A stretch of 64,000 bases of DNA, from NCBI GenBank assembly GCA_037349105.1, contig JAYJMM010000017.1, positions 620,001 to 684,000 on the forward strand, read 5' to 3'. Position numbers and translations under genes: made by a program. Source of the stretch: Limnomonas spitsbergensis. Taxonomy: Eukaryota; Chlorophyta; Chlorophyceae; Chlamydomonadales. The notes beneath the pieces were generated by a model. It saw only the letters and a list, made by a program, of their open reading frames with translations, made no database searches and was not told the DNA's origin. Numbering within the stretch: position 1 is the first letter of the stretch; every line of letters begins with the position of its first letter. Shown here piece after piece: positions 6,975-64,000 of this stretch.

Positions 6975-7149
6975 TCACACAAGCACCTCATATTGCGGAT
7001 CGACCTTCTCCACCAGGTTGAGGAGGTCCGTGACTTTCTCTCCCAGCGTCTGGCGCTCGTTCCGGGCCTCGATGAGGGCCTCCGCCTTGGCCTCGGTCGA
7101 AAAGGTTCCCGAAAGCATCGCACACAGCTCCACCGGGAGTCGGTTCCAC
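6975..7149 (-). CDS. LRR gene exon 26 (stop)
   Basis: Encodes Arg (split codon), WNRLPVELCAMLSGTFST, EAKAEALIEARNERQT, LGEKVTDLLNLVEKVDPQ, YEVLV, then TGA at 6,975-6,977. Acceptor ATCCAG, phase 2. Helical, charged tail, possibly a short coiled coil. Confidence 0.8.
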
Positions 7150-10100
7150 CTGGATCACCGTTTAGGGTTTAGGGTTTTGGGTTAAGCGTTTAGGGTTTAG
7201 GGTTAAGAGATCAAGGTTGCCAGCAGGAGCGTGCACAGCTACACCTGAACACACAGCTCCACCGGGAGTCAGTTCCACCTGGATCACGGTCAAGGTTCGA
7301 GGGTTCAGGGTTGCCAGCAGGAGCGTGCACAGCCACCCCTCGGCACAGCTAAAAGGGAAGTTGGTTTCACCTGGATCACGGTCAAGGTAAAGGGTTTAGG
7401 GTTCAGGGTTTGAGGGTTTAGGGTTTGAGGGTTCATAATTGCTATCAGGAGAGCGCACAGCTACCCCTGGGGCACAGCTAAAAGGGAGGTCAGTTCCACC
7501 AAACAAGCAAAAACAGCAACATACCCTTATTTTCAAAAGCTTGATACTGGTAGCACCCGGTGTACTAGCATTTTAAATTTCAAATTCAGAACGTACCGGT
7601 AGCTTCTGCATCCTGGGCACAGGTAAAGACCTCCAAAAGAGGTCGCATCAGGATGAAGCTCGACTGCCATTGGGTATGAGGAGCCCTGTGAGGAGCCTCA
7701 AATTGGGTGTGAGGAGCCCTCAGCCTGACCCAGACACCCCAAGGTGCACCACCGGGCAGGGGCAGCACGTTCCCCTTTCAGCCAAACTTTTACAACCTTC
7801 CCGGTCTTAGAAACAGAGGGGGGAGAAATGTCCTTGTTCTTGGAATATCACGTTTAAGATCAGACGTTAGGGCTGAGGAGCCCTCGGCTAGCGCATACAG
7901 AAAACAATGGGCATCAAATAATGGGCATCAAGGTACACGGTAGGTCCACATATTGGTCCACCTGTAGGGCGGAGAACATGTCAGGCCTCCCCGGGAAATC
8001 TCTTCACCCCTGAAATTCCGAAACTGACTGTCACGTCCCCCAGCAGGAAATCAGCTTGGGCTTGGCTCCAACGCCCAAAGGCCACCAATACCACACGCGT
8101 GCATCCCTGCCATTGTTAATTTTATTGTGCAGCAGTCCAATTGCACCACCGGGCAGGGGCAGCACATTCCATTTTTCAGCCCAACTTTTATAACTTTCCC
8201 GGGCATTGCTAATTTTAGTGTGCAGCAGTCTGCCTTCAGCAGTCCGCCCTGGCAGGCCCTTGGGTGGCCAACTGGCCACCCCTCTGCCCCTGGGGACCGA
8301 ACCTGGACCAGGCCCAACAGGTAGCCCTAGCAGCATGGCTTGCTGCCCCCCAGCCTTGGGTGGGAATGTAGCTGAATTGTAGCTGAAGCACCCTGAAATG
8401 AACTGGGTATGCGCACCTGAGGTCAATCTTGCCAAGTTCCGTGTTGTCACGGGTGAAGTGGTTGAACAGGTTCTTGTCGATGCTCTGGATAAAATTGTGC
8501 GTCACGTCGAGGTCCGTCAGAGTGGTGTTGTTCTGAGGAGGGGGACAGAAGGGGGAGGGGGGGGGAGGAGGGGGGGAGTGAGGAGAGAGTGAGGAGAGAG
8601 GGGGGAAAGAGTGTAGAGAGGGGAATGAGAGGGAAAATAGTGGGTAAGGAGAGGGAAAGGAGGAGAGGGAAATGAAATTGTGCGTCACGTCAAGGTCCGT
8701 CAGAGTGGTGTTGTTCTGAGGAGGGGGACAGAAGGGGGAGGAGGGGGAGGGGGGGAGGAGTGAGGAGAGAGTGAGAAGAGAGGGAGGAGAGAGGGAAGAG
8801 AGGGAAATGAGAGGGAAAATAGTGGGTAAGGAGTGGGAAAGGATGAGAGGGAAATGAAATTGTGCGTCACGTCGAGGTCCGTCAGAGTGGTGTTGTTCTG
8901 AGGAAAGGAGAGGAGGGGGAGGAGGGAGTGGTGTGAGGAGAGAGTAAGGAGGGAGAGGAGGGGGAGGGGTGAGTAGAGAGTGAGGAGAGGGAAAGGAGTA
9001 TGTAAGGAGGGGGGGAAAGGAGAGGGAAATGAGGAGAGGGAAATGAGTGGGTGAGGAGAGAGTGAGGAGAAGAGATGGAGATGTGAGGAGTGAGAGAGGA
9101 GAGGGAAACGAGTGGGTGAGGATGGGGAAGGAGAAGAGAGGGATAATGTGAGGAGTGAGAGATGAGAGGGAAATGAGTAGGTGAGGAGGGGGGAAGGAGA
9201 AAGGAAGGATAATGTGAGGAGTGACAAAGGAGAGGGGAAGACCTGGGTGAGGAGGGGGGAAAGGAGAAGAGAAGGAGAAGGACATCACAATGAGTGGGTA
9301 AGTGGTTGGTGAGGATGGGGAGGAATAAGAGAAAGTGGTGAGCATGGGGATATCAAAAGCTAGCAGGGGGTAAGTAAGGGGGTAAGCTAAACCCTAAACC
9401 CTGATATCTAAAGCTAGCAGGGGGTAAGCAGGGAGAGAGGGAGGGAGGGAGGGAGGGAGGGAGGGTACATGGCAACCAGTGGCAAGCGGGGGGTGAGGTG
9501 GGGCCACACCCTGGCCACCGCATGCCTCCCGCTTATTATTTGACTATGCTCTAGCTACATTCAGCTACATCCCTGGAAGGTAGCTTGGAGATCACTAAGA
9601 ATAAGGGCTGGTCCCTCCACGTCATTGCGACACAATTGCGCAATAATTCAGAAATCGTGGAAGTATTTACAGTCCTTTTCTGGTCAAAGTAGCTGGATTT
9701 TCCTTGAAATCACGGCGGGCTGAAATTCAGCTACGCAATACAGCCTCCGTAAGGTCCGTAATCAGCACATCACTGCTTTCCCATACTCCGTAACATATGT
9801 GATAAATGTAACAGCTGTAAAAGATGTAACTGCTGTTTTTCAAGCGGGAAGCAGGAAGGGGTGGTAAATCCAGGGTGAGGAATTGACCGTGGGCTGACCG
9901 GGGGATGGTTTTGCTTTCCCCCCCCTGGCTTGTTTGGCCCTGCATCTCTGCCCTTCATAGATTAGGTGAAAGAAAAGGACTATGGAGGCGCAGGCCCATT
10001 TTAGGGACTTTCAACTACAGTTTAGCTTCAATTCAAAGCCTACTTCCTTCGTAGCTTTGCCACAGGCCGCAGGCTGGTCATTGTTTGGTCCCTGTCGATC

Positions 10101-13100
10101 CAGTGGTGGCTGCCCAGTGGCCTGCCAAAGGAGGTCTGGTATGTGCACTGAAGGCAACACGGACCTGCAGCTGCATCAGCAGATCCTTGAAGCCTATAAT
10201 TTATAGTTAACTTAATCCTGAACCCTAAACCCTGGTGTGTGCACTGAAGTCAACACTGACCTGCAACTGCATCAGCAGATCCTTGAAGCTCTGGCTCGTC
10301 ATATTGACGGCGGACAGGGATAGCTGCCGCAGGTGCTACACAAGGAAAGGAACAGCAAGCAACATCATCGTCAAGATGAAGCTTAAGAAAGAAAGAAAGA
10401 AAGCATGGAAGGAGTAGCTGTCAAGACAAAGCTTCACAAGGAAAGAAACAAAGCTTCACAAGGAAGGAGCAGCACGCAACAGCATCGGCAAGGCGCTGCG
10501 CGCATGATGCGCGAGCGATCTCGCCGTCTTGCTGCCACATGCCTCAACCCCTTCTGTCAATGCGGGGGACACCCACAACGCCGAGGGGCGAACAAGTCAG
10601 GGCCACGTAAATATCTCGTAAATATCTAATGCCCTTCCAACGATTTGTTCCTGAGCCCTGGGAACCTCCAAAGACATGTCATGCATTCTGCATGTCCTGT
10701 TTTAATGCAGAGGTGCTATCGTATGCAGCCTGCACATATGTGTGTGTGTGTATGTTTTGAGTATTTGCCAGTATGTTAACGTGCATGCAGACGTTTCTGC
10801 ATCTGCTTGTGTACAAGCATGTGTGTGTGTGTGTATGTGTTGGCATGTACGTGTCAGAGCACATGTTTGTGCGTGCATGTGTGCATGTGTGAACGAAAAA
10901 GTGAGTGTGCGAATGTGCATGTGTGGCCGAACAAGTGTGTGTGCGTGTGTGCATGTGTGCATGTGTGCAAAACAAAAAGTATGTGCGTGTGTGCATGTGT
11001 GCACGAAAAAGTGTGTGTACAAAACAAAAAGTGTGTGTGTTTGTGAACCTGCATACACTTTTGTGTGTCTCACCTGCAGGTCTGAGGCGATGGACTCCAT
11101 TCCATCCAGGCCACCCTCGGTTCCAAACGGGTTGTGGCTCAGGTCCAAATCCTGCAGCGACTCGTGGCACAAAACCTCCTGCGGGCCGCGATAAACAGCA
11201 CTCGTCCATTTCTGGGAAGAATCGATTTCCAGAAGCCAGCAGTGGGAAAGGTGTGACACCGTGTGGACTTGAAAATGAGGCCAACCTAGGTTGTCAGGGT
11301 TTAGGCCTCCCGGAGACCTGCAGGTTGTCGTGAGCCACGTCGAGGGACTCTTGACCCGTCTGTGTCATCGATTCCAATAGCCCCAGTGTGTCGACTCAGC
11401 TGTCGACGAGGACCCCTTGCGCACCCGGGCTGTATTTTTTGTGTTCGCGTCTCAGGTCTCTAGGGTTGGGCGGCTGGTCTCACACCTTGTGAAGTCCTAG
11501 CAAAAGAAAAGAGTGTGTGAGGTGCAGCACTGTCGATCTCAGCGCATTTAAGCTGAGATACAGATACGATAAGAGCCTAAGACATGGCTTCTTCAGCCCC
11601 CCTTGGACATAGGCCCTTGTGAGGTGCAGCACTGTCGATCTCCAGCGCACTCAGCGACAATCCAGATACACCAAGGGACTGTGGCCAGGGGGGCCTGAGG
11701 AAGCAAGCCATGCTGCTCGGGCCACAGGCCGTGGGCCAGACAAAGTTTGGCACCCTGCTGCCCGATGGTAGCCACCCAGCGGCACCCTGAAGGTGCTCTG
11801 GCACGCACTACAACAAATACTGGGGTTCAGCCTGAACCCCATTCTTTGTTCAACCTCAAACGACAAAAACCCTTGACCAGGCACCCTGAACCGTTGAGGG
11901 TGCCTGGTGAAGGGTTTTCGTCGTTTGAGGTTGAACACTGCCAGGGTAACCTGATGCTGCTGGCAGGCAGTACCTGAGTCAGCAGCTTCACAAATTTTGC
12001 GCAGATGCGGCATTTGGAGAGCGCGAGGTACCGCAGGCCGGGGTTGTTCCGCAGAACCAGCCCGATCTGCTCCACCGACTCGCGGACGAGCTCCAGGGGC
12101 GGCAGCTCATTCTGCAAGGGGCGGGGTACGGATACGAGTGTCGAATCAGATCACCGGATCTAGATCAGATTGCCGGATCTAGATCAGCACGCCGGATCAG
12201 GTCAGAAAATATCTCTATAACAGTTCACCGGATGCAGGCCAGCGGCAGCGGCTTTTTGAACTTGAAGACTTGAAGGCAAGGAAGATTGCTTGCTTTGAAA
12301 ACCAGCAGGCGTGATCTAGATGGGGCTCGGCCGCAGGCAGGCATGGTGCTACCAACGACTGTTGTCTGCACTAAAAGCGTGTCCAGAAAATTTCGAAAGG
12401 GGCTATACAGAGGGCCAGGGCGAGGACAGGCGTGCAGGGTATGGAAGATGCGTTTAGGGTTTAAGGTTCAGGGTTTAGAGTTTAGTTTATGCAGAGGGCG
12501 AGGACCAGGACAAGCGTGCAGGGTATGGGGGATGCATGGTAGGAGCTCGAGTTGGTCTGCAGGGCATGGAGGATGCATTGCAGCTGGAGTGGCTCTGCAT
12601 TCGGGAGTGCAAATAAGCCAACAACGTTACACCTCTGCGCCCAGCTCGAAAAGGCTCACGGCCGCGTGGGCGCCCAACCGTCTGGTTGAGAGGGAAAAGG
12701 GAAGACAAAGGGCAGAGCAGAAAGTTCTCCATAATGACGGAGCAGGACAGGCAGGGCAGAAAACAAAACATAGCAGCTTTCAAATTCGAATTTGAATTCG
12801 AGCCCTGCAGCTAGCGGTGGTAGGGGTGGGGGCGCATGCTCACTTTGTGTGCATAGTCCAGATGACTGCTGTCCAGCTCCAAAGCCACCAGCATGCTCAT
12901 CGCAGCCAAGGGATCTCTAAGTGATTAGATCTAGAGATCTGAAGTGCTGGAAATTTAAGCTCGTCCCTAATGCTCACTTTGGGCGCATAGTCCAGATGAC
13001 TGTTGTCGAGCTCCAACGCCACCAGCGTGCTCATGGCAGCCAGGCCCTGGCACAACACCTTGACGCCATCGGCCGACAGGTCAGTGCTGCTCATGGACAA

Positions 13101-16100
13101 TGAGACCAGGCCGTGTTTATCACAGCGCTGCTCCCGGAAGGCGGCGGCCAGATGAGTGGCGCCTGCAGCGGGCAGTGGGTGTGCACACTAAACCCTAAGT
13201 AATGGGCATACGCCTTAAACCCTAAGTAATGGGCATACGCATAAATCCCGAAGTAATGGGCTTGCACAAACCCCAAGTACCAGGTGCCCTAGGTAGCGAA
13301 CGTGCGCATTTAACTCTAAACTAGGCCTGTAGTCAATGACAGCTCAGGTATCTTCAAGACCTCTGGTGCCGCTCTACATGGGGCAACCCAAAAGAGAAAC
13401 ACTGAACCGGTTTACCGGCAAAATGTCCCATGCAAAATGTCCCATGCATCAATTGTCCCATGCAAAATGTCCCATGCATCAATTGTCCCATGCATCAATT
13501 GTCATGCTCTGCTGGACTGTTTAAACTTCACAAAACTTCACTGTTCTGAATCCCACAAAGCTGGATAGGAATGGCAGCTGCATGCAACAAGCCTCAGAGC
13601 TCTACCGCACGCAGACCAAATGCGGGCTTCAAAACAAGATGCTAACAAAGTGTGACCTTCAAGGGAAACAGGCTGGTGGCATGTCGTACACATGCAGGTG
13701 CGGCCGTACCTGCGTCCCCGATCTTGGGGTTGTTCGACAGGTCCAGCACGAGCAGCGTGGTGTTGCCCTCGTTCGCGCCCTCGCCGCGCAGCGCTTCGGC
13801 GACGAGTGCCACGAAGCCGGATGTGAAGTCGGTCGATCGCAGCGTCAAGTTCTCCAGAACGTCATTCCGCATCAGCACGCTCTTGAGTGCTTCAGAGGCT
13901 GCCAACGTGAATTTGTTGTCAGAGAGGTCGACCTAGTTGGGTGGTTGGGTGGTTGGGTGGGTGTCAGTGGGAAGGATTTTACTAGGCAGCCCGGAAAGGG
14001 ACGTCAACTGGTAGGGGGTCATGCAGGCAGCGGCCTAGCCCTTTCGTCCAGTTGAGGGCGAACCCTGAACCCTAAAAAAAAAAAACGTGGGGATCTTTGA
14101 CACCTTCCCCGGGTTTCTTTTGGTGTCTTTACTTTTCTTGAACCCTTCGCTCTTTTTCAGGGTTGTTTTCTTTCGGGTGCGAACAACCATCGGCGTGTCA
14201 GTGCGATAACGCACGGTATGCAACAACTTTTTCTGCCACCGGCAGGTGTCGAACTCGCGACCTCCGTTAGATCAGTATCGTCGGTGCCAGGCTGTAAGCG
14301 ACTGACACCAGTACGGCATTAGTCACGGACGTTTACGTTGGGTGGGTGGCGGGCGAGAGGTGTCATCGCCGCGCGGCCAAAAAGCTTTTCGAATATATAT
14401 CGCCTACACCCGACGTTGGGTACAATCGAATTGCATTGCTAATGCGCTGCTCTTTATCGAGGCCGCGCTTGCGGTAGAACACTTCGTGGCAACCCACCCC
14501 TGGCCTGTGTCTGCGGAGCGTCGTGAGCCGTCGCTTCGGCATAGTAGGTTTGGTGACCGTGTTTGCTTTTTTTTCTTTCTGCCATCGGCAGGTATCGAAC
14601 TCGCGACCATCGCTTGGTCAGTATCGTCGGTGCTAGGCTGTGAGCGACTGACACCAGTACGGCATTACGCACGGACGATTACGTGGCCTGTGCCTGCGGA
14701 GCGTCGTGAGCCGTCGCTTCGGCATAGTAGGTTTGGTGTGCGTTTTTTTTTTTTTTTTTTTTTTTAGTCACTTTTTTTTTCTAGGCACACTTTTTTTACA
14801 GTCTCCCATAAAGGAGATCCCTAAAAAAAAAATGAACACTTGAGACCTTGAAGCACATGCCTTTTTGTCAAGCAAGGAGAATTTCCTAGGGCAAACAACA
14901 GCCGGCCCTTGAGCAACAGGGTTTGCTGCAACATGCTAGGGTTTAGGGTTAAGGGTTTGCAGGAGATTAATACAACAACCCAAGACCCTGAACGGCCGAC
15001 CCTTAAGCAACAGGGATTGCTTCACCAGGGTAGGGTTTAGGGTCTAGGGTTTGCAGGAGAGTAATACAAAATCCCTAACCCCCAAACGGCCGGCCTTTCA
15101 GCAATAGGGATTGCTGCACCATGTAACCCTCAGATGTAGGCCGTGAGAGGCGGAGGGTTTGCAGGAGAGAGTAATATAAAAACCTGAAGGATTTTAGTGA
15201 CAGAGGTTTTGCAGGGTTTGCAGGGTGAAGGTTTTGCAGGAGAGTTATACAGGAGCCTGAAGGATTTCAGGGACAGGACTTTCCACAGTGTGAGGCCGGC
15301 CGCCCAACCCTAGAAAAACCGTGACTTGTACTGCCTTCTTTCTATTCATCCCACATACCTCCCTCACTCATATTAACTGCTATGTCATTTGTTTGCATCC
15401 CAGTGACTCTGTTTACCTTCATCAGCCTCCTGTTGTTTGCCAGCCGCTCATTAATGACCCACGTGACCTGATCCGGCGTCAGGCCTGTTGACCCAACAGC
15501 GTCCGCCCATTCACCTTATTGCACATCCTTACCTCCCCCAGGCCTAGGCACATGCCGCATAGTCTCCTTAAACCTCACGCCCCTGCGGGGCGCAGTTTTC
15601 TTTCTTTCTTTCTTATTTGCCGAAGGGAGTCACTGGTTTTCCCTGGCTATCCCACCCTATTCAGTCCCAGTACCGGTCTACAAGCGCACGTGCATCACGC
15701 ATCAAAAGTGATGCCCTGCTGCACTGTAAAGCACACACGAAAATACTTCAACCTCCTGCTCACCTTAATAATACTCCTGTTGTGTGCCAGCCCCTCGTTG
15801 ATGACCAGCGTGACCTGCTCCGGCGTCAGGAACGTCGAGGACAAGTTCAGCTCCTCTAGCGGGTCCAGCCGGGCGATGCACTCGGCGAACTCCTGGGCCG
15901 TGTTGTCTGCAAAGCAGTCCTAGCGGTGGCAAGGGGCACCAGGTTCAGGGTTCAGGGTTGAAGCCGATAAAGGACCCCGCCACCAGGAGCCCGCCACTGT
16001 CATCAGAGTCCAGGGTGTAGATATAAAGGTAGGGTACAGGTTCATCCTTGTAGCGGATCCAGCTAGACACTGCACTGTGAAAGTGTGAATCTTCTGGGAG

Positions 16101-48374: not shown

Positions 48375-48785
48375 GTTGGCGAATAAAATGAATATAAACT
48401 AGGGCCGAAGTTTCTGGTGCTGACGCTGAAGCATAACTCTGTTTGTCACGGGAAACTGACAGAATCTGGTCGTCCAGTGCGCCAGAGACGGCTGTACTGG
48501 ATTCACAAATATTAGGAATGGGATGCGCTTGCAATTTGCCTGTTGACCTTCGTGAGCGTCCAATACGCATCCATTAGGACCAAGAACAAAACTTCGAATG
48601 TGCTGTACAGGTACATCGACACCATGTCTTTTCGCTCATCAGCATATACCGATGTTGCGCAAATTTGCAACACATGCTCCCAGTTGTTTTTGAATCACCT
48701 AGGATTAATTTGTAGCATCTATTAGAAAACGCAAGGCTTTGACCCACAAGGCGACGCGCAACAGGGGCAGGGACAGGGGGCGAGG
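48375..48785. promoter_or_regulatory. Head-to-head intergenic region
   Basis: About 410 bp separates the two divergent start codons, so it must hold both promoters and both 5' UTRs unless upstream exons exist. No TATA box or known motif is confidently seen; it is one of the few stretches here free of tandem repeats. Confidence 0.5.
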
Positions 48786-49120
48786 ATGACTTCAAATCCT
48801 CAGGAGCTTTTCAGCCGGCCCTATCCCATCTTCCCCGAGAAGTTCATGAAGGGCGTGGGCATGTCGGTGTACCAAAACTCGGCCGATGGCCCTGCCCCCG
48901 CTCCGTCGAACTGGGGGCATTACATCGCTAAGAAGAACTACCTGGGCCAGAGGGAGTACACATCGGCATGGCAAACCTCAAATGATTTCTGGAATTTGTA
49001 CGAGACCGACATCAAGCTCGCAGCGGAGACGCTGGGCACAAACTCGTTCAGATTCTCTTTCGAGTGGAGCCGAATCGAGCCCAAAGCCCCCGGCGTGGTG
49101 GACCATGCTGCAGTAGAAAG
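48786..49120 (+). CDS. GH1 exon 1
   Basis: ATG at 48,786 (GGCGAGGATGAC). 111 codons from MTSNPQELFSRPYPIF, with MKGVGMSVYQNSADG at the position of the usual GH1 N-terminal GxxxSxYQ block, to VVDHAAVE plus AG. Donor AAAG|GTAGCA, phase 2. Confidence 0.85.
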
Positions 49121-52100: not shown

Positions 52101-55100
52101 TTGGGTTAAGGGTCATGGGTTTAGGAACGGCCTAGCAGTGCAAACTGATGCTTTGGGTTTAGGGCCAAGGGTTTAGAAACGGCCTAGCAGTGCAAACTGA
52201 TGCTTTGGGTTTAGGGTCATGGGTTTAGGAACGGCCTAGCAGTGCAAACTGATGCTTTGGGTTTAGGGTTATGGGTTTAGAAACGGCCTAGCAGTGCAAA
52301 CTGATGCTTTGGGTTAAGGGTCATGGGTTTAGGAACGGCCTAGCAGTGCAAACTGATGCTTTGGGTTTAGGGTCAAGGGTTTAGAAACGGCCTAGCAGTG
52401 CAAACTGATGCTTTGGGTTTAGGGTCATGTGTTTAGAATCGGCCTAGCAGTGCAAATTGATGCTTTGGGTTTAGGGTCATGGGTTTAGAAACGGCCTAGC
52501 AGTGCAAATTGATGCTTTGGGTTTAGGGTCAAGGGTTTAGAAACGGCCTAGCAGTGCAAACTGATGCTTTGGGTTTAGGGTCATGGGTTTAGAAACGGCC
52601 TAGCAGTGCAAACTGATGCTTTGGGTTTAGGGTCAAGGGTTTAGAAACGGCCTAGCAGTGCAAACTGATGCTTTGGGTTTAGGGTCATGTGTTTAGAATC
52701 GGCCTAGCAGTGCAAATTGATGCGTTGGGTTTAGGGTCATGGGTTTAGAAACGGCCTAGCAGTGCAAACTGATGCTTTGGGTTTAGGGTCATGGGTTTAG
52801 AAATGGCCTAGCAGTGCAAACTGATGCTTTGGGTTTAGGGTCATGGGTTTAGAAACGGCCTAGCAGTGCAAACTGATGCTTTGGGTTTAGGGTCATGGGT
52901 TTAGAAACGGCCTAGCAGTGCAAACTGATGCTTTGGGTTTAGGGTCATGGGTTTAGAATCGGCCTAGCAGTGCAAACTGATGCTTTGGGTTTAGGGTCAT
53001 GGGTTTAGAATCGGCCTAGCAGTGCAAATTGATGCTTTGGGTTTAGGGTCATGGGTTTAGAATGGGCCTAGCAGTGCAAACTGATGCTTTGGGTTTAGGG
53101 TCATGGGTTTAGAAACGGCCTAGCAGTGCAAACTGATGCTTTGGGTTTAGGGTCATGGGTTTAGAAACGGCCTAGCAATGCAAACTGATGCTTTGGGTTT
53201 AGGGTCATGGGTTTAGAAACGGCCTAGCAGTGCAAACTGATGCTTTGGGTTTAGGGTCATGGGTTTAGAATCGGCCTAGCAGTGCAAACTGATGCTTTGG
53301 GTTTAGGGTCATGGGTTTAGAATCGGCCTAGCAGTGCAAACTGATGCTTTGGGTTTAGGGTCATGGGTTTAGAATGGGCCTAGCAGTGCAAATTGATGCT
53401 TTGGGTTTAGGTTCATGGGTTTAGAAACGGCCTAGCAGTGCAAACTGATGCTTTGGGTTTAGGGTCATGGGTTTAAGAACGGCCTAGCAGTGCAAACTGA
53501 TGCTTTGGGTTTAGGGTCAAGGGTTTAGAAACGGCCTAGCAGTGCAAACTGATGCTTTGGGTTTAGGGTCATGGGTTTAGAAACGGCCTAGCAGTGCAAA
53601 CTGATGCTTTGGGTTTAGGGTCAAGGGTTTAGAAACGGCCTAGCAGTGCAAACTAATGCTTTGGGTTTAGGGCCAAGGGTTTAGAAACGGCCTAGCAGTG
53701 CAAATTGATGCTTTGGGTTTAGGGTCATGGGTTTAGAAACGGCCTAGCAGTGCAAACTGATGCTTTGGGTTTAGGGTCAAGGGTTTAGAAATGGCCTAGC
53801 AGTGCAAACTGATGCTTTGGGTTTAGGGTCAAGGGTTTAGAAACGGCCTAGCAGTGCAAACTGATGCTTTGGGTTTAGGGTCATGGGTTTAGAATCGGCC
53901 TAGCAGTGCAAATTGATGCTTTGGGTTTAGGGTCATGGGTTTAGAAACGGCCTAGCAGTGCAAACTGATGCTTTGGGTTTAGGGTCATGGGTTTAGGAAC
54001 GGCCTAGCAGTGCAAACTGATGCTTTGGGTTTAGGGTCAAGGGTTTAGAAACGGCCTAGCAGTGCAAACTGATGCTTTGGGTTTAGGGTCATGGGTTTAG
54101 AAACGGCCTAGCAGTGCAAACTGATGCTTTGGGTTTAGGGTCAAGGGTTTAGAAACAGCCTAGCAGTGCAAACTGATGCTTTGGGTTTAGGGTCATGGGT
54201 TTAGGAACGGCCTAGCAGTGCAAACTGATGCTTTGGGTTTAGGGTCAAGGGTTTAGAAACGGCCTAGCAGTGGAAACTGATGCTTTGGGTTTAGGGTCAT
54301 GGGTTTAGAAACGGCCTAGCAGTGCAAACTGATGCTTTGGGTTTAGGGTCAAGGGTTTAGAATCGGCCTAGCAGTGCAAACTAATGCTTTGGGTTTAGGG
54401 CCAAGGGTTTAGAAACGGCCTAGCAGTGCAAACTGATGCTTTGGGTTTAGGGTCATGGGTTTAGAAACGGCCTAGCAGTGCAAACTGATGCTTTGGGTTT
54501 AGGGTCATGGGTTTAGAAACGGCCTAGCAGTGCAAACTGATGCTTTGGGTTTAGGGTCATGGGTTTAGAAACGGCCTAGCAGTGCAAACTGATGCTTTGG
54601 GTTTAGGGTCATGGGTTTAGAATCGGCCTAGCAGTGCAAACTGATGCTTTGGGTTTAGGGTCATGGGTTTAGAATGGGCCTAGCAGTGCAAATTGATGCT
54701 TTGGGTTTAGGTTCATGGGTTTAGAAACGGCCTAGCAGTGCAAACTGATGCTTTGGGTTTAGGGTCATGGGTTTAAGAACGGCCTAGCAGTGCAAACTGA
54801 TGCTTTGGGTTTAGGGTCAAGGGTTTAGAAACGGCCTAGCAGTGCAAACTGATGCTTTGGGTTTAGGGTCATGGGTTTAGAAACGGCCTAGCAGTGCAAA
54901 CTGATGCTTTGGGTTTAGGGTCAAGGGTTTAGAAACGGCCTAGCAGTGCAAACTAATGCTTTGGGTTTAGGGCCAAGGGTTTAGAAACGGCCTAGCAGTG
55001 CAAATTGATGCTTTGGGTTTAGGGTCATGGGTTTAGAAACGGCCTAGCAGTGCAAACTGATGCTTTGGGTTTAGGGTCAAGGGTTTAGAAATGGCCTAGC

Positions 55101-58100
55101 AGTGCAAACTGATGCTTTGGGTTTAGGGTCAAGGGTTTAGAAACGGCCTAGCAGTGCAAACTGATGCTTTGGGTTTAGGGTCATGGGTTTAGAATCGGCC
55201 TAGCAGTGCAAATTGATGCTTTGGGTTTAGGGTCATGGGTTTAGAAACGGCCTAGCAGTGCAAACTGATGCTTTGGGTTTAGGGTCATGGGTTTAGGAAC
55301 GGCCTAGCAGTGCAAACTGATGCTTTGGGTTTAGGGTCAAGGGTTTAGAAACGGCCTAGCAGTGCAAACTGATGCTTTGGGTTTAGGGTCATGGGTTTAG
55401 AAACGGCCTAGCAGTGCAAACTGATGCTTTGGGTTTAGGGTCAAGGGTTTAGAAACAGCCTAGCAGTGCAAACTGATGCTTTGGGTTTAGGGTCATGGGT
55501 TTAGGAACGGCCTAGCAGTGCAAACTGATGCTTTGGGTTTAGGGTCAAGGGTTTAGAAACGGCCTAGCAGTGGAAACTGATGCTTTGGGTTTAGGGTCAT
55601 GGGTTTAGAAACGGCCTAGCAGTGCAAACTGATGCTTTGGGTTTAGGGTCAAGGGTTTAGAATCGGCCTAGCAGTGCAAACTAATGCTTTGGGTTTAGGG
55701 CCAAGGGTTTAGAAACGGCCTAGCAGTGCAAACTGATGCTTTGGGTTTAGGGTCATGGGTTTAGAAACGGCCTAGCAGTGCAAACTGATGCTTTGGGTTT
55801 AGGGTCATGGGTTTAGAAACGGCCTAGCAGTGCAAACTGATGCTTTGGGTTTAGGGTCATGGGTTTAGAAACGGCCTAGCAGTGCAAACTGATGCTTTGG
55901 GTTTAGGGTCAAGGGTTTAGAAACGGCCTACAGTGCAAACTGATGCTTTGGGTTTAGGGTCATGTGTTAAGAATCGGCCTAGCAGTGCAAATTGATGCTT
56001 TGGGTTTAGGGTCATGGGTTTAGAAACGGCCTAGCAGTGCAAACTGATGCTTTGGGTTTAGGGTCATGGGTTTAGGAACGGCCTAGCAGTGCAAACTGAT
56101 GCTTTGGGTTTAGGGTCAAGGGTTTAGAAACGGCCTAGCAGTGCAAACTGATGCTTTGGGTTTAGGGTCATGGGTTTAGAAACGGCCTAGCAGTGCAAAC
56201 TGATGCTTTGGGTTTAGGGTCAAGGGTTTAGAAACGGCCTAGCAGTGCAAACTAATGCTTTGGGTTTAGGGCCAAGGGTTTAGAAACGGCCTAGCAGTGC
56301 AAACTGATGCTTTGGGTTTAGGGTCAAGTGTTTAGAAATGGCCTAGCAGTGCAAACTGATGCTTTGGGTATAGGGTCAAGGGTTTAGAAACGGCCTAGCA
56401 GTGCAAACTGATGCTTTGGGTTTAGGGTCATGGGTTTAGAATCGGCCTAGCAGTGCAAATTGATGCTTTGGGTTTAGGGTCATGGGTTTAGAATCGGCCT
56501 AGCAGTGCAAATTGATGCTTTGGGTTTAGGGTCATGGGTTTAGAAACGGCCTAGCAGTGCAAACTGATGCTTTGGGTTTAGGGTCATGGGTTTAGAAACG
56601 GCCTAGCAGTGCAAACGGATGCTTTGGGTTTAGGGTCAAGGGTTTAGAAACGGCCTACAGTGCAAACTGATGCTTTGGGTTTAGGGTCATGGGTTTAGAA
56701 ACGGCCTAGCAGTGCAAATTGATGCGTTGGGTTTAGGGTCATGGGTTTAGAAACGGCCTAGCAGTGCAAACTGATGCTTTGGGTTTAGGGTCATGGGTTT
56801 AGAATCGGCCTAGCAGTGCAAACTGATGCTTTGGGTTTAGGGTCATGGGTTTAGAAACGGCCTAGCAGTGCAAACTGATGCTTTGGGTTTAGGGTCATGG
56901 GTTTAGAAACGGCCTAGCAGTGCAAACTGATGCTTTGGGTTTAGGGTCAAGGGTTTAGAAACGGCCTACAGTGCAAACTGATGCTTTGGGTTTAGGGTCA
57001 TGGGTTTAGAATCGGCCTAGCAGTGCAAATTGATGCTTTGGGTTTAGGGTCAAGGGTTTAGAAACGGCCTAGCAGTGCAAACTGATGCTTTGGGTTTAGG
57101 GTCATGGGTTTAGAATCGGCCTAGCAGTGCAAATTGATGCTTTGGGTTTAGGGTCATGGGTTTAGAATCGGCCTAGCAGTGCAAATTGATGCTTTTGGTT
57201 TAGGGTCATGGGTTTAGAAACGGCCTAGCAGTGCAAACTGATGCTTTGGGTTTAGGGTCATGGGTTTAGAAACGGCCTAGCAGTGCAAACTGATGCTTTG
57301 GGTTTAGGGTCAAGGGTTTAGAAACGGCCTACAGTGCAAACTGATGCTTTGGGTTTAGGGTCATGGGTTTAGAAACGGCCTAGCATTGCAAATTGATGCG
57401 TTGGGTTTAGGGTCATGGGTTTAGAAACGGCCTAGCAGTGCAAACTGATGCTTTGGGTTTAGGGTCATGGGTTTAGAATCGGCCTAGCAGTGCAAACTGA
57501 TGCTTTGGGTTTAGGGTCATGGGTTTAGAAACGGCCTAGCAGTGCAAACTGATGCTTTGGGTTTAGGGTCATGGGTTTAGAAACGGCCTAGCAGTGCAAA
57601 CTGATGCTTTGGGTTTAGGGTCAAGGGTTAAGAAACGGCCTACAATGCAAACTGATGCTTTGGGTTTAGGGTCATGGGTTTAGAAACGGCCTAGCAGTGC
57701 AAATTGATGCGTTGGGTTTAGGGTCATGGGTTTAGAAACGGCCTAGCAGTGCAAACTGATGCTTTGGGTTTAGGGTCATGGGTTTAGAATCGGCCTAGCA
57801 GTGCAAACTGATGCTTTGGGTTTAGGGTCATGGGTTTAGAAACGGCCTAGCAGTGCAAACTGATGCTTTGGATTTAGGGTCATGGGTTTAGAAACGGCCT
57901 AGCAGTGCAAACTGATGCTTTGGGTTTAGGGTCATGGGTTTAGAAACGGCCTAGCAGTGCAAACTGATGCTTTGGGTTTAGGGTCATGGGTTTAGAATCG
58001 GCCTAGCAGTGCAAATTGATGCTTTGGGTTTAGGGTCATGGGTTAAGAAACGGCCTAGCAGTGCAAACTGATGCTTTGGGTTTAGGGTCATGGGTTTAGA

Positions 58101-61100
58101 AACGGCCTAGCAGTGCAAACTGATGCTTTGGGTTTAGGGTCATGGGTTTAGAAACGGCCTAGCAATGCAAACTGATGCTTTGGGTTTAGGGTCATGGGTT
58201 TAGAAACGGCCTAGCAGTGCAAACTGATGCTTTGGGTTTAGGGTCATGGGTTTAGAATCGGCCTAGCAGTGCAAACTGATGCTTTGGGTTTAGGGTCATG
58301 GGTTTAGAATCGGCCTAGCAGTGCAAACTGATGCTTTGGGTTTAGGGTCATGGGTTTAGAATCGGCCTAGCAGTGCAAATTGATGCTTTGGGTTTAGGGT
58401 CATGGGTTTAGAAACGGCCTAGCAGTGCAAACTGATGCTTTGGGTTTAGGGTCATGGGTTTAGAAACGGCCTAGCAGTGCAAACTGATGCTTTGGGTTTA
58501 GGGTCAAGGGTTTAGAAACGGCCTAGCAGTGCAAATTGATGCTTTGGGTTTAGGGTCAAGGGTTTAGAAACGGCCTAGCAGTGCAAACTGATGCTTTGGG
58601 TTTAGGGTCATGGGTTTAGAAACGGCCTAGCAGTGCAAACTGATGCTTTGGGTTTAGGGTCATGGGTTTAGAATGGGCCTAGCTGTGCAAATTGATGCTT
58701 TGGGTTTAGGGTCATGGGTTTAGAAACGGCCTAGCAGTGCAAACTGATGCTTTGGGTTTAGGGTCATGGGTTTAGGAACGGCCTAGCAGTGCAAACTGAT
58801 GCTTTGGGTTTAGGGTCAAGGGTTTAGAAACGGCCTAGCAGTGCAAACTGATGCTTTGGGTTTAGGGTCATGGGTTTAGAAACGGCCTAGCAGTGCAAAC
58901 TGATGCTTTGGGTTTAGGGTCAAGGGTTTAGAATCGGCCTAGCAGTGCAAACTAATGCTTTGGGTTTAGGGCCAAGGGTTTAGAAACGGCCTAGCAGTGC
59001 AAACTGATGCTTTGGGTTTAGGGTCATGGGTTTAGAAACGGCCTAGCAGTGCAAACTGATGCTTTGGGTTTACGGTCATGGGTTTAGAAACGGCCTAGCA
59101 GTGCAAACTGATGCTTTGGGTTTAGGGTCATGGGTTTAGAAACGGCCTAGCAGTGCAAACTGATGCTTTGGGTTTAGGGTCAAGGGTTTAGAAACGGCCT
59201 ACAGTGCAAACTGATGCTTTGGGTTTAGGGTCATGGGTTTAGAATCGGCCTAGCAGTGCAAACTGATGCGTTGGGTTTAGGGTCATGGGTTTAGAAACGG
59301 CCTAGCAGTGCAAACTGATGCTTTGGGTTTAGGGTCATGGGTTTAGAAACGGCCTAGCAGTGCAAACTGATGCTTTGGGTTTAGGGTCATGGGTTTAGAA
59401 ACGGCCTAGCAGTGCAAACTGATGCTTTGGGTTTAGGGTCATGGGTTTAGAATCGGCCTAGCAGTGCAAACTGATGCTTTGGGTTTAGGGTCATGGGTTT
59501 AGAATCGGCCTAGCAGTGCAAATTGATGCTTTGGGTTTAGGATCATGGGTTAAGAAACGGCCTAGCAGTGCAAACTGATGCTTTGGGTTTAGGGTCATGG
59601 GTTTAGAAACGGCCTAGCAGTGCAAACTGATGCTTTGGGTTTAGGGTCATGGGTTTAGAAACGGCCTAGCAATGCAAACTGATGCTTTGGGTTTAGGGTC
59701 ATGGGTTTAGAAACGGCCTAGCAGTGCAAACTGATGCTTTGGGTTTAGGGTCATGGGTTTAGAATCGGCCTAGCAGTGCAAACTGATGCTTTGGGTTTAG
59801 GGTCATGGGTTTAGAATCGGCCTAGCAGTGCAAACTGATGCTTTGGGTTTAGGGTCATGGGTTTAGAATCGGCCTAGCAGTGCAAATTGATGCTTTGGGT
59901 TTAGGGTCATGGGTTTAGAAACGGCCTAGCAGTGCAAACTGATGCTTTGGGTTTAGGGTCATGGGTTTAGAAACGGCCTAGCAGTGCAAACTGATGCTTT
60001 GGGTTTAGGGTCATGGGTTTAGAAACGGCCTAGCAGTGCAAACTGATGCTTTGGGTTTAGGGTCATGGGTTTAGAATCGGCCTAGCAGTGCAAACTGATG
60101 CTTTGGGTTTAGGGTCATGGGTTTAGAATCGGCCTAGCAGTGCAAATTGATGCTTTGGGTTTAGGGTCATGGGTTTAGAAACGGCCTAGCAGTGCAAACT
60201 GATGCTTTGGGTTTAGGGTCATGGGTTTAGAAACGGCCTAGCAGTGCAAACTGATGCTTTGGGTTTAGGTTCATGGGTTTAGAAACGGCCTAGCAATGCA
60301 AACTGATGCTTTGGGTTTTGGGTCATGGGTTTAGAAACGGCCTAGCAGTGCAAACTGATGCTTTGGGTTTAGGGTCATGGGTTTAGAAACGGCCTAGCAG
60401 GGCAAACTGATGCTTTGGGTTTAGGGTCATGGGTTTAGAATCGGCCTAGCAGTGCAAACTGATGCTTTGGGTTTAGGGTCATGGGTTTAGAATGGGCCTA
60501 GCAGTGCAAATTGATGCTTTGGGTTTAGGGTCATGGGTTTAGAAACGGCCTAGCAGTGCAAACTGATGCTTTGGGTTTAGGGTCATGGGTTTAGGAACGG
60601 CCTAGCAGTGCAAACTGATGCTTTGGGTTTAGGGTCAAGGGTTTAGAAACGGCCTAGCAGTGCAAACTGATGCTTTGGGTTTAGGGTCATGGGTTTAGAA
60701 ACGGCCTAGCAGTGCAAACTGATGCTTTGGGTTTAGGGTCATGGGTTTAGAAACGGCCTAGCAGTGCAAACTGATGCTTTGGGTTTAGGGTCAAGGGTTT
60801 AGAAACGGCTTAGCAGTGCAAACTGATGCTTTGGGTTTAGGGTCATGTGTTTAGAATCGGCCTAGCAGGGCAAATTGATGCGTTGGGTTTAGGGTCATGG
60901 GTTTAGAAACGGCCTAGCAGTGCAAACTGATGCTTTGGGTTTAGGGTCATGGGTTTAGAAACGGCCTAGCAGTGCAAACTGATGCTTTGGGTTTAGGGTC
61001 ATGGGTTTAGAAACGGCCTAGCAGTGCAAACTGATGCTTTGGGTTTAGGGTCATGGGTTTAGAAACGGCCTAGCAGTGCAAACTGATGCTTTGGGTTTAG

Positions 61101-64000
61101 GGTCAAGGGTTTAGAAACGGCTTAGCAGTGCAAACTGATGCTTTGGGTTTAGGGTCATGTGTTTAGAATCGGCCTAGCAGTGCAAATTGATGCGTTGGGT
61201 TTAGGGTCATGGGTTTAGAAACGGCCTAGCAGTGCAAACTGATGCGTTGGGTTTAGGGTCATGGGTTTAGAAACGGCCTAGCAGTGCAAACTGATGCTTT
61301 GGGTTTAGGGTCATGGGTTTAGAATCGGCCTAGCAGTGCAAACTGATGCTTTGGGTTTAGGGTCATGGGTTTAGAAACGGCCTAGCAGTGCAAACTGATG
61401 CTTTGGGTTTAGGGTCATGGGTTTAGAAACGGCCTAGCAGTGCAAACTGATGCTTTGGGTTTAGGGTCATGGGTTTAGAAACGGCCTAGCAGTGCAAACT
61501 GATGCTTTGGGTTTAGGGTCATGGGTTTAGAAACGGCCTAGCAATGCAAACTGATGCTTTGGGTTTAGGGTCATGGGTTTAGAAACGGCCTAGAAGTGCA
61601 AACTGATGCTTTGGGTTTAGGGTCATGGGTTTAGAATCGGCCTAGCAGTGCAAACTGATGCTTTGGGTTTAGGGTCATGGGTTTAGAATCGGCCTAGCAG
61701 TGCAAATTGATGCTTTGGGTTTAGGGTCATGGGTTTAGAAACGGCCTAGCAGTGCAAACTGATGCTTTGGGTTTAGGGTCATGGGTTTAGAAACGGCCTA
61801 GCAGTGCAAACTGATGCTTTGGGTTTAGGGTCATGGGTTTAGAAACGGCCTAGCAGTGCAAACTGATGCTTTGGGTTTAGGGTCAAGGGTTTAGAAACGG
61901 CCTAGCAGTGCAAACTGATGCTTTGGGTTTAGGGTCAAGGGTTTAGAAACGGCCTAGCAGTGCAAATTGATGCTTTGGGTTTAGGGTCAAGGGTTTAGAA
62001 ACGGCCTAGCAGTGCAAACTGATGCTTTGGGTTTAGGGTCATGGGTTTAGAAACGGCCTAGCAGTGCAAACTGATGCTTTGGGTTTAGGGTCAAGGGTTT
62101 AGAAACGGCCTAGCAGTGCAAACTAATGCTTTGGGTTTAGGGTCATGGGTTTAGAAACGGCCTAGCAGTGCAAACTAATGCTTTGGGTATAGGGTCAAGG
62201 GTTTAGAAACGGCCTCGCACTCTAGTAGTGCAAAGTGGCGGTGATGAGCATATCTTACCAACCAGGGATACACGTTTTATATGAGGGTTGTACATTGAAT
62301 GTGTGTCGTCACTTTGTCAACCCCCCCAACGTTATTTCGAATGGCCAAGCAGTGCAAAGTGGTGTTACATGGCGCATTTTGCCATCCAGCGACAGAGGTA
62401 TTCGACGAGGTCTGTGCATTTAATGCGTCAGTTTGTCAACTGGGGCCCGGCCTTTTGATGCTTTAGGGACACGCCGATGACCTGCTGTTGTGGCTCCTCC
62501 TCCCCACCGTCCCCCCCCTTCTCTTGCTCCCTTACTCATGCTCCCCTCCTCCCTCACCCTTGCCTCCTCCTCCAAGCCTGATGTGTAAGTGGTTTATCCT
62601 ACTGGTTTGGCTGCTCCCCACGGCCCGCCCCCCGGTCCCATGGGGTACCTTACTCATAATCCCCTCTTCCCTCACCCCTGCCTCCTCCTCCCAGCCTGAT
62701 GTGCAAGTAGATGGCTTCTAGTTCAGCTCCTCCACCCCACCATCCTGCCCTCTCCCCTTCCCTTCCCTAGCCTGCTATGCAAGTGGGTAACCTTAGGTTG
62801 TGGCTCCTCCTCCCCACCTTCCTACCCCTTCCCGTGTTCCCTTACTCATGCTCCCCTCCTCCCTCACCCTTGCCTCCTCCTCCTTGTCTGCTGTGCAAGT
62901 GGGTAACCTACTGACTTGGCTCCTCTGTCCCACTGTCCTCCCCCTTACTTGTGTTCCCCTAATCCCCCCCCCCCCCCCCTCCCACACCCCTTTCTCCTCC
63001 TCCCAGCCTGCTGTGCAAGTGGATGACCTACTGGCTTGACTCCTCTGTCCCACTGTCCTCCCCCTTGTGTTCCACCAATCCCCCCCCCCCCCCCCCCCCC
63101 TCCCACACCCCTTTCTCCTCCTCCCAGCCTGCTGTGCAAGTGGATGACCTACTGGTTTGGCTCCGAATCCATCCTGCGTTTCTTCAAGACCGGCCTGTTT
63201 GAGTGGAAGGTGCCGTTCAAGGGGGTCATGGTGCGCTTCAAGTGCGAGGAGGCACCCAGCACAATTGACTGGTGAGAGAGGGGGGGGCGGCTTTTAGTGA
63301 CAGGGGGGGGGTCTGTGACTGGTTTGTGAGAGGGGGGTGGGATCCGTTTACTAAGAGGGGGGGATTCGTTTAGTGAGAGAGGGGGGGGGGGGCGTTAAGT
63401 GAGAGGGGGGAGGTCCGTTCAGTGAGAGGAAGGGTTTCTTTTAGTGTGAGGGGGGGATTCGTTTACTGAGAGGGGGGGATTTACTTACTGAGAGGGGTGT
63501 GGGATCTCTATGTTAGTGAGTCGGGGGTGGCTTCCCTGGGGTTGAAGGTGCAATCCTAAAATTTGCTTGGGATTGAAGCTGACTCAGAGCCCTAAACCCT
63601 AAACCCCAAACCCTTGGCAGCAGGGGGGGGTAGAGGGGGAGAGGGAGGGGGGGGGGAGTGGTCTGGGGGGCATATGGGGGCAGCGCATTGGCGGCGGTTT
63701 CATCACGGGCACCCTCACCGTAAAACCGTAATACCTCACCTCTATTAAGTGCAATTTGTACCTCGGGTCACTCTCCTTGCCAACATTGGTCACACTTTGT
63801 GATGCATCCCTATCGCCATCTAACTTGTGTGTGTTTGTTGCTGTGTCACTCTATTTGCCCGCCTTTGTCACGCTATGTGATGTCACTCATGTTGCATTTC
63901 CATGTCACTATCTCTGCCTGCCTTTGTCACGCTGTGTGATGTCACTCGTGTTTGCTGCCATGTCACTCCATTTGCCTGCCATTGTCACGCTGCGTGATGT
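48786..64000 (+). CDS. Glycoside hydrolase family 1 (beta-glucosidase-like), 3' incomplete
   Basis: Five exons visible (48,786-49,120; 49,742-49,946; 50,652-50,726; 51,504-51,643; 63,128-63,271), all phase-consistent, giving about 300 of the roughly 450-500 residues usual for GH1. Family marks in order: FRFSFEWSRIEP (about 90-101), CTLHHFTHPQWFEEMGG (about 128-144), and WATFNEPT with the acid/base Glu at about 178. Then LLKAHVAVYKELK, IGLVHQHIRF and KWMTYWFG followed by GLFEWKVP. GH1 enzymes hydrolyse or transfer beta-linked sugars by a retaining mechanism. The nucleophile motif (I/V-TENG) should lie past 64,000. There is no signal peptide at this start, suggesting a cytosolic or plastid enzyme. 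The substrate cannot be told. A 11.5-kb intron holds the 52-bp satellite. Confidence 0.85.
49480..49740 (+). repeat. Copies of GH1 exon 2 acceptor edge
   Basis: Diverged copies at about 49,478-49,560 (CATCAAGGCTCATGGAACGG), 49,608-49,635 and 49,634-49,715 of the real exon start, with CAATCATCCATG simple repeats between. Confidence 0.8.
49742..49946 (+). CDS. GH1 exon 2 (catalytic acid/base)
   Basis: Acceptor AGCGCAG; encodes FHEIIDCIKAHGMEPMCT, LHHFTHPQWFEEMGGFTK, through FTWFAPKIRMWATFNEPT. Donor ACG|GTGAGG, phase 0. Glu of NEP is the conserved proton donor. Confidence 0.9.
50240..50651 (+). repeat. Exon 3 edge copies and 10-bp repeat
   Basis: Copies of the exon 3 start at about 50,265 and 50,405-50,455 (CATTCGTGCGCTTCATCGCC), then about 15 units of CCTGTACCGA (50,505-50,648) running straight into the exon 3 acceptor CCTGTACCGCAG. 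Confidence 0.85.
50652..50726 (+). CDS. GH1 exon 3
   Basis: 25 codons, CFAFVGFIAGLWCPGELL, ECTLAGT; donor ACG|GTGAGC, phase 0. Follows NEP as the usual Y/G-x-x-x-G-x-x-P-G segment of GH1. Confidence 0.85.
51020..51480 (+). repeat. Four copies of GH1 exon 4 acceptor edge
   Basis: Units of about 118-120 bp, each with CAACTCC...CAG followed by GTGCTGTGCATGCTGCTCAA. Copies at about 51,034, 51,150, 51,268 and 51,387 look like exon starts. In the exon frame, three of the four hit a stop soon after (TAT TAG, CTT TAG, AAC TGA). Confidence 0.92.
51504..51643 (+). CDS. GH1 exon 4
   Basis: Acceptor GTGTCCAG; encodes VLCTLLKAHVAVYKELKA, MPGGQEACIGLVHQHIRF, VAKSGCSPHI plus GG. Donor TTGG|GTGAGA, phase 2. 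Confidence 0.85.
51722..62225. repeat. 52-bp telomere-like satellite, about 202 units
   Basis: The unit is AAACGGCCTAGCAGTGCAAA, CTGATGCTTTGGGTTTAGGG, TCATGGGTTTAG, so it contains a TTTAGGG motif and three GGG runs on the transcribed-sense strand. Most variants are shared two-state sites (tcaTggg/tcaAggg, aaACgg/aaTCgg, aaaCtga/aaaTtga, gctTtgg/gcGttgg). A 51-bp form lacking one G occurs near 55,930, 56,654, 56,965, 57,328, 57,639 and 59,200. It fills most of GH1 intron 4. Confidence 0.97.
53270..55900. repeat. 1,300-bp higher-order duplication in 52-bp array
   Basis: About 53,270-54,600 is repeated at about 54,570-55,900 with an exact offset of 1,300 bp (25 units). Rare variants coincide: gttcatggg (53,411/54,711), gtttaagaac (53,471/54,771), agaaacagcc (54,151/55,451), cagtggaaac (54,269/55,569). 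Confidence 0.92.
62226..63127 (+). repeat. Five copies of GH1 exon 5 acceptor edge
   Basis: After 62,226-62,460, which holds diverged scraps of the 52-bp unit, units of about 110-120 bp follow. Each has C/T-rich DNA with CCTCCTCCCAGCCTGCTGTG then CAAGTGGATGACCTACTGG-like sequence, at about 62,572, 62,693, 62,770, 62,885 and 63,003. Similarity to the real exon rises towards it. Confidence 0.92.
63128..63271 (+). CDS. GH1 exon 5
   Basis: Acceptor CTCCCAG; encodes Gly (split codon), LLCKWMTYWFGSESILRF, FKTGLFEWKVPFKGVM, VRFKCEEAPSTID plus TG. Donor ACTG|GTGAGA, phase 2. The next exon should begin with the GH1 G-x-N-Y-Y block. Confidence 0.85.
63275..63510 (+). repeat. G-rich copies of GH1 exon 5 donor edge
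   Basis: Six or seven 35-45-bp units with GnTTnnnTGAGAGGGGGG, derived from the ACTGGTGAGAGAGGGG donor region. Confidence 0.75.
63740..64000. repeat. About 60-70-bp repeat at window edge
   Basis: Four units with CTTTGTCACGCTGTGTGATG and TCACTC...CCATGTCACT, continuing past the edge. By analogy it may be an edge copy series of the next GH1 exon. Confidence 0.7.

Follow-up and report, generated by a model that had tools for sequence, protein, structure and literature searches.

Does an exon-intron junction drive the growth of its own intron? The question is raised by a 64,000-nucleotide (nt) stretch of the Limnomonas spitsbergensis genome (positions 620001-684000 of contig C17, hereafter the window, in an assembly of 260,226,709 bases and 124 contigs), where many introns of two genes, an LRR gene and a glycoside hydrolase family 1 (GH1) gene, hold tandem partial copies of the adjoining exon edge, splice site included. 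A preliminary description of the window saw in these copies an expansion process templated by the junction. We find that the feature is real and present beyond the window, and that junction templating is not needed to explain it. The copies are quite probably the product of ordinary tandem duplication, unusually pervasive here and tolerated wherever the real splice site still prevails.

Gene models were built with a purpose-written protein-to-genome spliced aligner. The LRR gene (6978..30739, minus strand) has 20 coding exons when aligned with Chlamydomonas eustigma protein P0121 (score 2397, 50% protein identity), and 19 of its 19 introns are GT-AG in the model. Its exons had earlier been numbered up to 26, so those numbers cannot be matched one to one with ours. 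The GH1 gene (48786..64000 in the window, plus strand) has 10 coding exons, with a 3' end outside the window at ~75,780 in window numbering. Its internal edges agree between two queries, C. eustigma protein P0001 and a second algal protein, P0002; two further 3' exons from the second query were doubtful and were left unused. The nearest relatives of GH1 are chlamydomonadalean green algae, with C. eustigma at the top (67%), and a paralog with an identical set of 10 exons is present on contig C9, in the stretch C9:1543001-1573000. The control set consisted of ten of the 17 PF00118 gene loci (the CCT/Cpn60 genes), six taken at the start and then two paralog pairs with longer introns, all picked by coordinates prior to any repeat search and modelled as Pfam-guided composites with paralog comparison. 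Before counting we set aside ten introns whose models were doubtful, 8 of 51 from the first six genes and 2 of 39 from the other four, and the main sample comprised 117 modelled introns with 234 junctions. Two kinesin genes with 7 introns were tallied separately, with seven edges placed by eye, one of them wrong by 1 base. A junction was counted when a local direct repeat spanned the splice site by at least 15 nt both ways, a threshold of our choosing. Repeat spacing was limited to 700 nt in the 117-intron count and unlimited in a count of the 37 introns of LRR, GH1 and the GH1 paralog. Because paralogs share some arrays, counts over the GH1 copies and the CCT pairs are not independent.

By this measure, a tandemly copied segment contains the splice site at 15 donors and 25 acceptors, amounting to 40 of 234 junctions and 35 of 117 introns. 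With unlimited spacing, local direct repeats span 12 donors and 17 acceptors in the 37-intron set. No local repeat of any kind appeared in 114 first-order-Markov-shuffled introns (three introns longer than 4 kb were excluded), and the copies are therefore not due to chance; the central observation of the preliminary description, tandem partial copies of exon edges carrying the splice site, is borne out as common. Copied exon sequence is 15-118 nt deep (median 48.5) in units with a median of 134 nt, the lower bound of 15 being set by our threshold. The units stand head to tail and measure tens to hundreds of nt, as in minisatellites, and at the 40 junctions the duplicated segment crosses the exon-intron boundary. 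Twelve of the 19 LRR introns are affected (7 donors, 7 acceptors), together with 4 of 9 GH1 introns at the window locus (1 donor, 4 acceptors; one lies past the window end). This makes 16 of 28 introns in the window genes, compared with 6 of 9 in the GH1 paralog and 13 of 80 in the CCT/Cpn60 genes, whose introns are shorter. The 14 supported LRR junctions, out of 38, fall short of the 18 that had been listed, and neither the acceptor of GH1 exon 3 nor the donor of GH1 exon 5, both on the original list, is supported at the 15-nt threshold. Copy number is highest at the donor of LRR intron 10, with 16 copies, and at one acceptor of the GH1 paralog, with 22-23; LRR introns 9 and 18 have both donor and acceptor edges copied. 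In the two kinesin genes 4 of 14 junctions are affected. At intron 4 of one of them (L024, on C101) two matches cross the acceptor, yet no array of that intron extends there, so those exon-edge copies stand apart from the exon.

Introns in this sample lengthen through tandem duplication. Arrays found from intron sequence alone occur in 0/16 introns shorter than 150 nt, 1/18 of 150-300 nt, 4/22 of 300-500 nt, 12/24 of 500-800 nt, 15/21 of 800-1500 nt and 16/16 of at least 1500 nt, and the array-free introns (n = 69) have a median length of 309 nt. The mean intron of L. spitsbergensis has been given as 788 nt (PMC11228838). Growth by tandem copying, as originally suggested, is thus found, and exon edges are copied in further genes, the CCT/Cpn60 and kinesin genes. 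Arrays that contain no exon sequence, the 52-nt array of GH1 intron 4 for one, contribute much of the length. That the copies always include the splice site proves to be a selection effect, since other arrays, among them the two longest in the window (51 nt x 217 and 52 nt x 202), contain no junction at all.

How, then, do exon edges come to be copied so often? On the reading we prefer, tandem duplications of ~100-150 nt would arise without regard to the splice site, by slippage, unequal exchange or staggered-break repair, and some arrays would then grow and homogenise by slippage or unequal exchange between copies. A duplication within an exon would break the protein and be lost, while one in an intron, or reaching from the intron into an exon edge, would leave an intact exon next to its own splice site and be retained, the outermost splice site presumably being the one used. 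Introns were probably of ordinary length when the arrays began, and with introns of ~300 nt and units of ~130 nt nearly one in two tolerated duplications is bound to cross an edge. Four placement nulls, A to D, give the expected numbers. In null D a single unit is placed in a 300-nt intron, near the array-free median: 24 of 48 arrays cross a junction in LRR, GH1 and the paralog, where 22.4 ± 3.3 are expected, and 7 of 18 do so in the CCT/Cpn60 genes, where 8.8 ± 2.1 are expected. With 650-nt introns the expectations are 11.4 and 4.5, respectively, and over the ancestral lengths tried the CCT/Cpn60 expectation spans 3.7 to 11.6. Crossing arrays in the kinesin genes number 2 of 7, with 2.1 expected.

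A distance profile of local-repeat coverage is independent of any placement model. On the donor side of LRR, GH1 and the paralog, coverage is 0.06, 0.24 and 0.37 in successive exon bins and 0.42, 0.44, 0.52, 0.59, 0.58 and 0.66 in the intron; on the acceptor side the exon values are 0.08, 0.29 and 0.49 and the intron values 0.56, 0.63, 0.61, 0.61, 0.63 and 0.65. Coverage climbs from deep exon through the junction to an intron plateau, and on the donor side it is still climbing at 200-300 nt. No clear peak at the splice site was found in this profile. Arrays seeded at junctions should be densest there, and the profile therefore speaks against seeding. A simpler point-coverage test, in which 29 of 74 junctions were covered compared with 57% of intron points, suggested non-enrichment, but it is circular, because crossing arrays fill their introns; for this reason we used the array-level nulls and the distance profile.

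Several results weigh against duplication blind to the splice site. In null A, final footprints were placed at random in the gene and rejected when they swallowed an exon; LRR, GH1 and the paralog then have 32 of 53 arrays crossing, with 11.8 ± 2.8 expected, and the six CCT genes, still with their 8 doubtful introns, have 6 of 10, with 4.8 expected. Null B, where arrays were found from intron sequence only and the advantage of slow-changing exon sequence was thereby removed, gives 24 of 48 compared with 10.2 ± 2.6 in the first set and 7 of 18 compared with 7.4 in the ten CCT/Cpn60 genes. Null C, with a single unit placed in an intron shrunk by its arrays, gives 13.7 ± 3.0 and 5.1 ± 1.8 expected for the same observed counts. 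Under these three nulls the window genes and the GH1 paralog have a 1.75- to 2.7-fold excess of crossing. Restricting the arrays to at least 80% identity leaves 14 of 30 crossing in this set, where null B expects 6.5 and null C 7.9, and 0 of 7 in the control set, where 2.7 and 1.3 are expected. The excess is clear only for the window genes and the paralog, and it requires introns that were already long; the verdict leans on an ancestral intron length that we infer. The gene models derive from protein homology. Acceptors are crossed more often than donors (25 vs. 15), mainly in the CCT/Cpn60 genes (10 vs. 3), and the profile at CCT/Cpn60 acceptors rises slightly in the last of the exon bins (0.18, followed by 0.14 and 0.13). 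Similarity that rises towards the real exon, also claimed at the outset, holds as a tendency: it drops with distance from the real junction, by a negative rank correlation, in 17 of the 20 arrays with at least three copies (two-sided sign test, p ~0.003, with paralogous arrays not independent). Exchange between neighbours at the array end would explain this gradient, as would growth at the exon. Mean copy-to-copy identity is below mean copy-to-real identity in 13 of the 20, a pattern that fits repeated templating or merely slow change of the exon.

In the remaining 7 arrays, which include the largest, the copies are on average closer to each other than to the real junction. (A count of arrays in which the best other copy beats the real junction gave 12/20, but it uses a maximum and favours large arrays, and we rejected it for the count by means.) Overall, identity between a copy and the real edge is 57-96%. 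Three sets of three copies stand in intron 7 of the GH1 paralog. Within a set the copies agree at 100% over the 65 nt compared and are separated by several units, but their identity to the real junction is 88-89%, so blocks of the array, not the exon, were copied. The largest arrays grew by copying copies, a statement that applies to large arrays only. Change of copy number with homogenisation, as in minisatellites, is found in the arrays examined, those of GH1 paralog intron 7 and GH1 intron 3. Both paralogs carry the 118-nt array in GH1 intron 3; its breakpoint, judged by eye, falls at a similar point in the two, ~62 nt inside the exon, and the copies in each paralog are closer to their own exon than to that of the other paralog; this array is therefore old and homogenised. 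Of the CCT paralogs, those on C39 and C99 both have copies at introns 3 and 8, while copies at intron 6 were found only on C39.

These results allow the alternatives to be weighed. The preliminary description had the junction serving as template for the expansion of the intron; a process linked to splice-site DNA, R-loops or co-transcriptional repair would recopy the junction into the intron time after time. Results that fit this are the excess of crossing that the window genes and the paralog have when present-day intron lengths are assumed, the gradient in 17/20 arrays, the 13/20 in which copies are on average closer to the real junction than to each other, and copies at some of the same junctions in both paralogs. 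We nevertheless regard the junction as an unlikely template or target: coverage has no clear peak there and on the donor side is still increasing into the intron, the CCT/Cpn60 and kinesin genes, which lay outside the original sample, have no significant excess, the largest arrays copied themselves, the breakpoint common to both GH1 intron 3 arrays points to one old event, and donor and acceptor edges are both used. A milder possibility, also doubtful, is that arrays start preferentially at exon edges and grow outward, with splice-site DNA as a weak duplication hotspot in this lineage. It stands if introns were at least ~650 nt long when the arrays started, because the 24 observed crossings would then compare with 11.4 of 48 expected, and if true it would account for the gradient.

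Could the copies themselves be used, as spare or recursive splice sites under selection? AG is kept in 65 of 82 acceptor copies and GT in 50 of 56 donor copies (115 of 138 together), compared with 62 of 149 and 107 of 201, respectively, for control dinucleotides elsewhere on the intron side. Per intron, retention at acceptors is 0.725 vs. 0.396 in the controls (paired p 0.012, 12 introns) and at donors 0.778 vs. 0.645 (p 0.26, 15 introns). The real site cannot change, while at control positions both partners mutate, so the proper yardstick is the square root of the control rate. It puts the expectation per intron at 0.63 for acceptors and 0.80 for donors, and apparent selection on the splice dinucleotides disappears once this one-sided constraint is allowed for, apart from a remainder at acceptors. 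Raw counts, dominated by a few big arrays, stay above the square-root expectation (0.79 vs. 0.65 and 0.89 vs. 0.73). Donor decoys are roughly at neutral expectation, acceptor decoys somewhat above it, and decoys are not purged; use of the copies is improbable. Insertion of mobile or introner-like elements with splice sites at many junctions is very improbable indeed: introner families are known in algae, but the copies here derive from the adjoining exon itself. In a search of the whole assembly, matches to the GH1 intron 3 array were confined to that locus and the C9 paralog; those to the LRR intron 1 array lay at its own locus, at a C9 counterpart and at a weak place on C29 (65-66% over ~300 nt), along with many short matches (<80 nt) in a GGTGCATG-like motif. 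Element-like dispersed relatives of these two arrays were not found in this search, which skipped very common words. False duplication from noisy long reads is hardly credible either. Copy numbers of near-identical arrays of at least 10 kb are unreliable to the single unit, and the 260-Mb assembly exceeds the k-mer estimate of 233 Mb (PMC11228838), but copies 57-96% identical to the real edge are not something assemblers invent, arrays are common to paralogs on another contig, and the read L50 is 33 kb (PMC11228838).

In Chlamydomonas reinhardtii and Volvox carteri tandem-repeat density is highest in introns, with significantly more repeats near intron-exon junctions (G3 2013, PMC3887541). Introns rich in tandem repeats, including near junctions, are thus shared with these green algae; the units there are 1-50 nt, whereas here they are mostly 80-200 nt and include exon sequence, and the relevant passages of that paper do not describe exon-edge copies. 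In the potato RdRp gene, one tandem duplication crossing an intron-exon boundary copied the end of an intron with the start of an exon and created a new intron (PeerJ 2016, PMC4974935). The L. spitsbergensis duplications likewise cross the boundary. Unlike that single event, however, they are found at 40 of 234 junctions, in as many as 23 copies, and the predicted gene models skip the copies within one longer intron. Duplication of a segment is also common to intron gain by tandem duplication of gene segments with splice-site-like sequence; here, in contrast to introns born in that way, the gene models have existing introns that lengthen at positions common to paralogs, and no newly gained ones. 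The L. spitsbergensis genome paper gives repeat totals and, in the parts available to us, makes no mention of junction copies (PMC11228838), and long algal introns are discussed in Chlamydomonas comparative genomics with no mechanism named in the passages concerned (PMC8226300). Among the matches listed in the open-access literature, none described exon-edge arrays as a pervasive feature; the scope did not include subscription papers. The present case is one of known kinds, intronic tandem repeats and boundary-crossing duplication, on a larger scale. It is informative on intron growth and splice-site choice: introns can become longer and accumulate decoy splice sites in a simple way, and 35 of the 117 have an exon edge copied in tandem. 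The spliceosome must choose the right site among up to 23 look-alikes, and full-length transcripts of the alga exist (PMC11228838). It is also a warning to gene predictors and sequence readers, as in this genome an exon copy next to an exon is no sign of an additional exon.

Within the LRR gene (all minus strand), an acceptor-edge array of ~140 nt x 4 lies upstream of exon 2 (28788-28932) at 28953..29505, with up to 62 nt of exon copied. A degenerate donor-edge copy of exon 3 (28270-28431), at 27877..27960, was placed by a 374-nt shift and by eye. Donor-edge arrays follow for exon 4 (26841-26964; 26635..26850, ~95 nt x 2) and exon 5 (26357-26446; 26003..26392, ~85 nt x 4-5), and intron 7 (24159..24572) holds three donor-edge copies of exon 7 (24573-24711), one of them at 24479-24532. 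Acceptor-edge copies upstream of exon 9 (22091-22219) occupy 22220..22491, and intron 9 (20679..22090) contains donor-edge and acceptor-edge copies. The donor-edge array of exon 10 (20449-20678), 121 nt x 16 at 18426..20548, includes up to 100 nt of exon. Acceptor-edge copies of exon 12 (17130-17282) with 26 nt of exon are found in intron 11 (17283..18291), and one such copy of exon 13 (15764-15919) with 28 nt of exon in intron 12 (15920..17129). A donor-edge copy of exon 18 (10261-10335) at 10140..10193 has 29 nt of exon at 93% identity; further on, an acceptor-edge array of ~182 nt x 3 (8533..9046) precedes exon 19 (8417-8532) and acceptor-edge copies (7211..7403) precede exon 20 (6978-7149).

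In the GH1 gene (plus strand), acceptor-edge copies lie upstream of exon 2 (49742-49946) at 49460..49636. The 118 nt x 4 acceptor-edge array upstream of exon 4 (51504-51643), at 50998..51503, has copy acceptors at 51033, 51150, 51268 and 51386 and is common to the C9 paralog. Upstream of exon 5 (63128-63271), an acceptor-edge array of ~120-nt units with 37 nt of exon spans 62476..63127. The 52 nt x 202 array makes up most of GH1 intron 4 (51721..62219). Between the LRR and GH1 genes lies the 51 nt x ~217 array (31975-43078, 97% matches); its unit length is divisible by 3, and on both strands reading frames of more than 1000 codons cross the array. Two arrays of one 45-nt unit, with 12 and 28 copies, lie upstream of GH1 at 45053-47140.

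Close to the GH1 paralog, C9:1573379-1574181 contains DNA relatives of LRR intron 1, which suggests that the whole LRR-GH1 block was duplicated. The CCT/Cpn60 genes are apparently paired as well (C39/C99, C36/C119 and perhaps C84/C114), and such gene pairs hint at large-scale duplication. Five other loci, L006 and L010-L013, have 2-17% repeat coverage on a different E-value scale and without gene models, and no conclusion was drawn from them. Telomere-like TTTAGGG/CCCTAAA heptamers are enriched in the window (39 vs. 5.4 expected, two largest arrays excluded). As a duplication mechanism the heptamer was rejected, since it is not located at duplication ends (48% of 61 within 30 nt, compared with 45% at random). 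The heptamers occur in window introns (for example at 7160-7440, 16978-17113 and 51721-62219) and in 0 modelled exons, and the coding strand of the LRR introns carries 26 CCCTAAA and 4 TTTAGGG.

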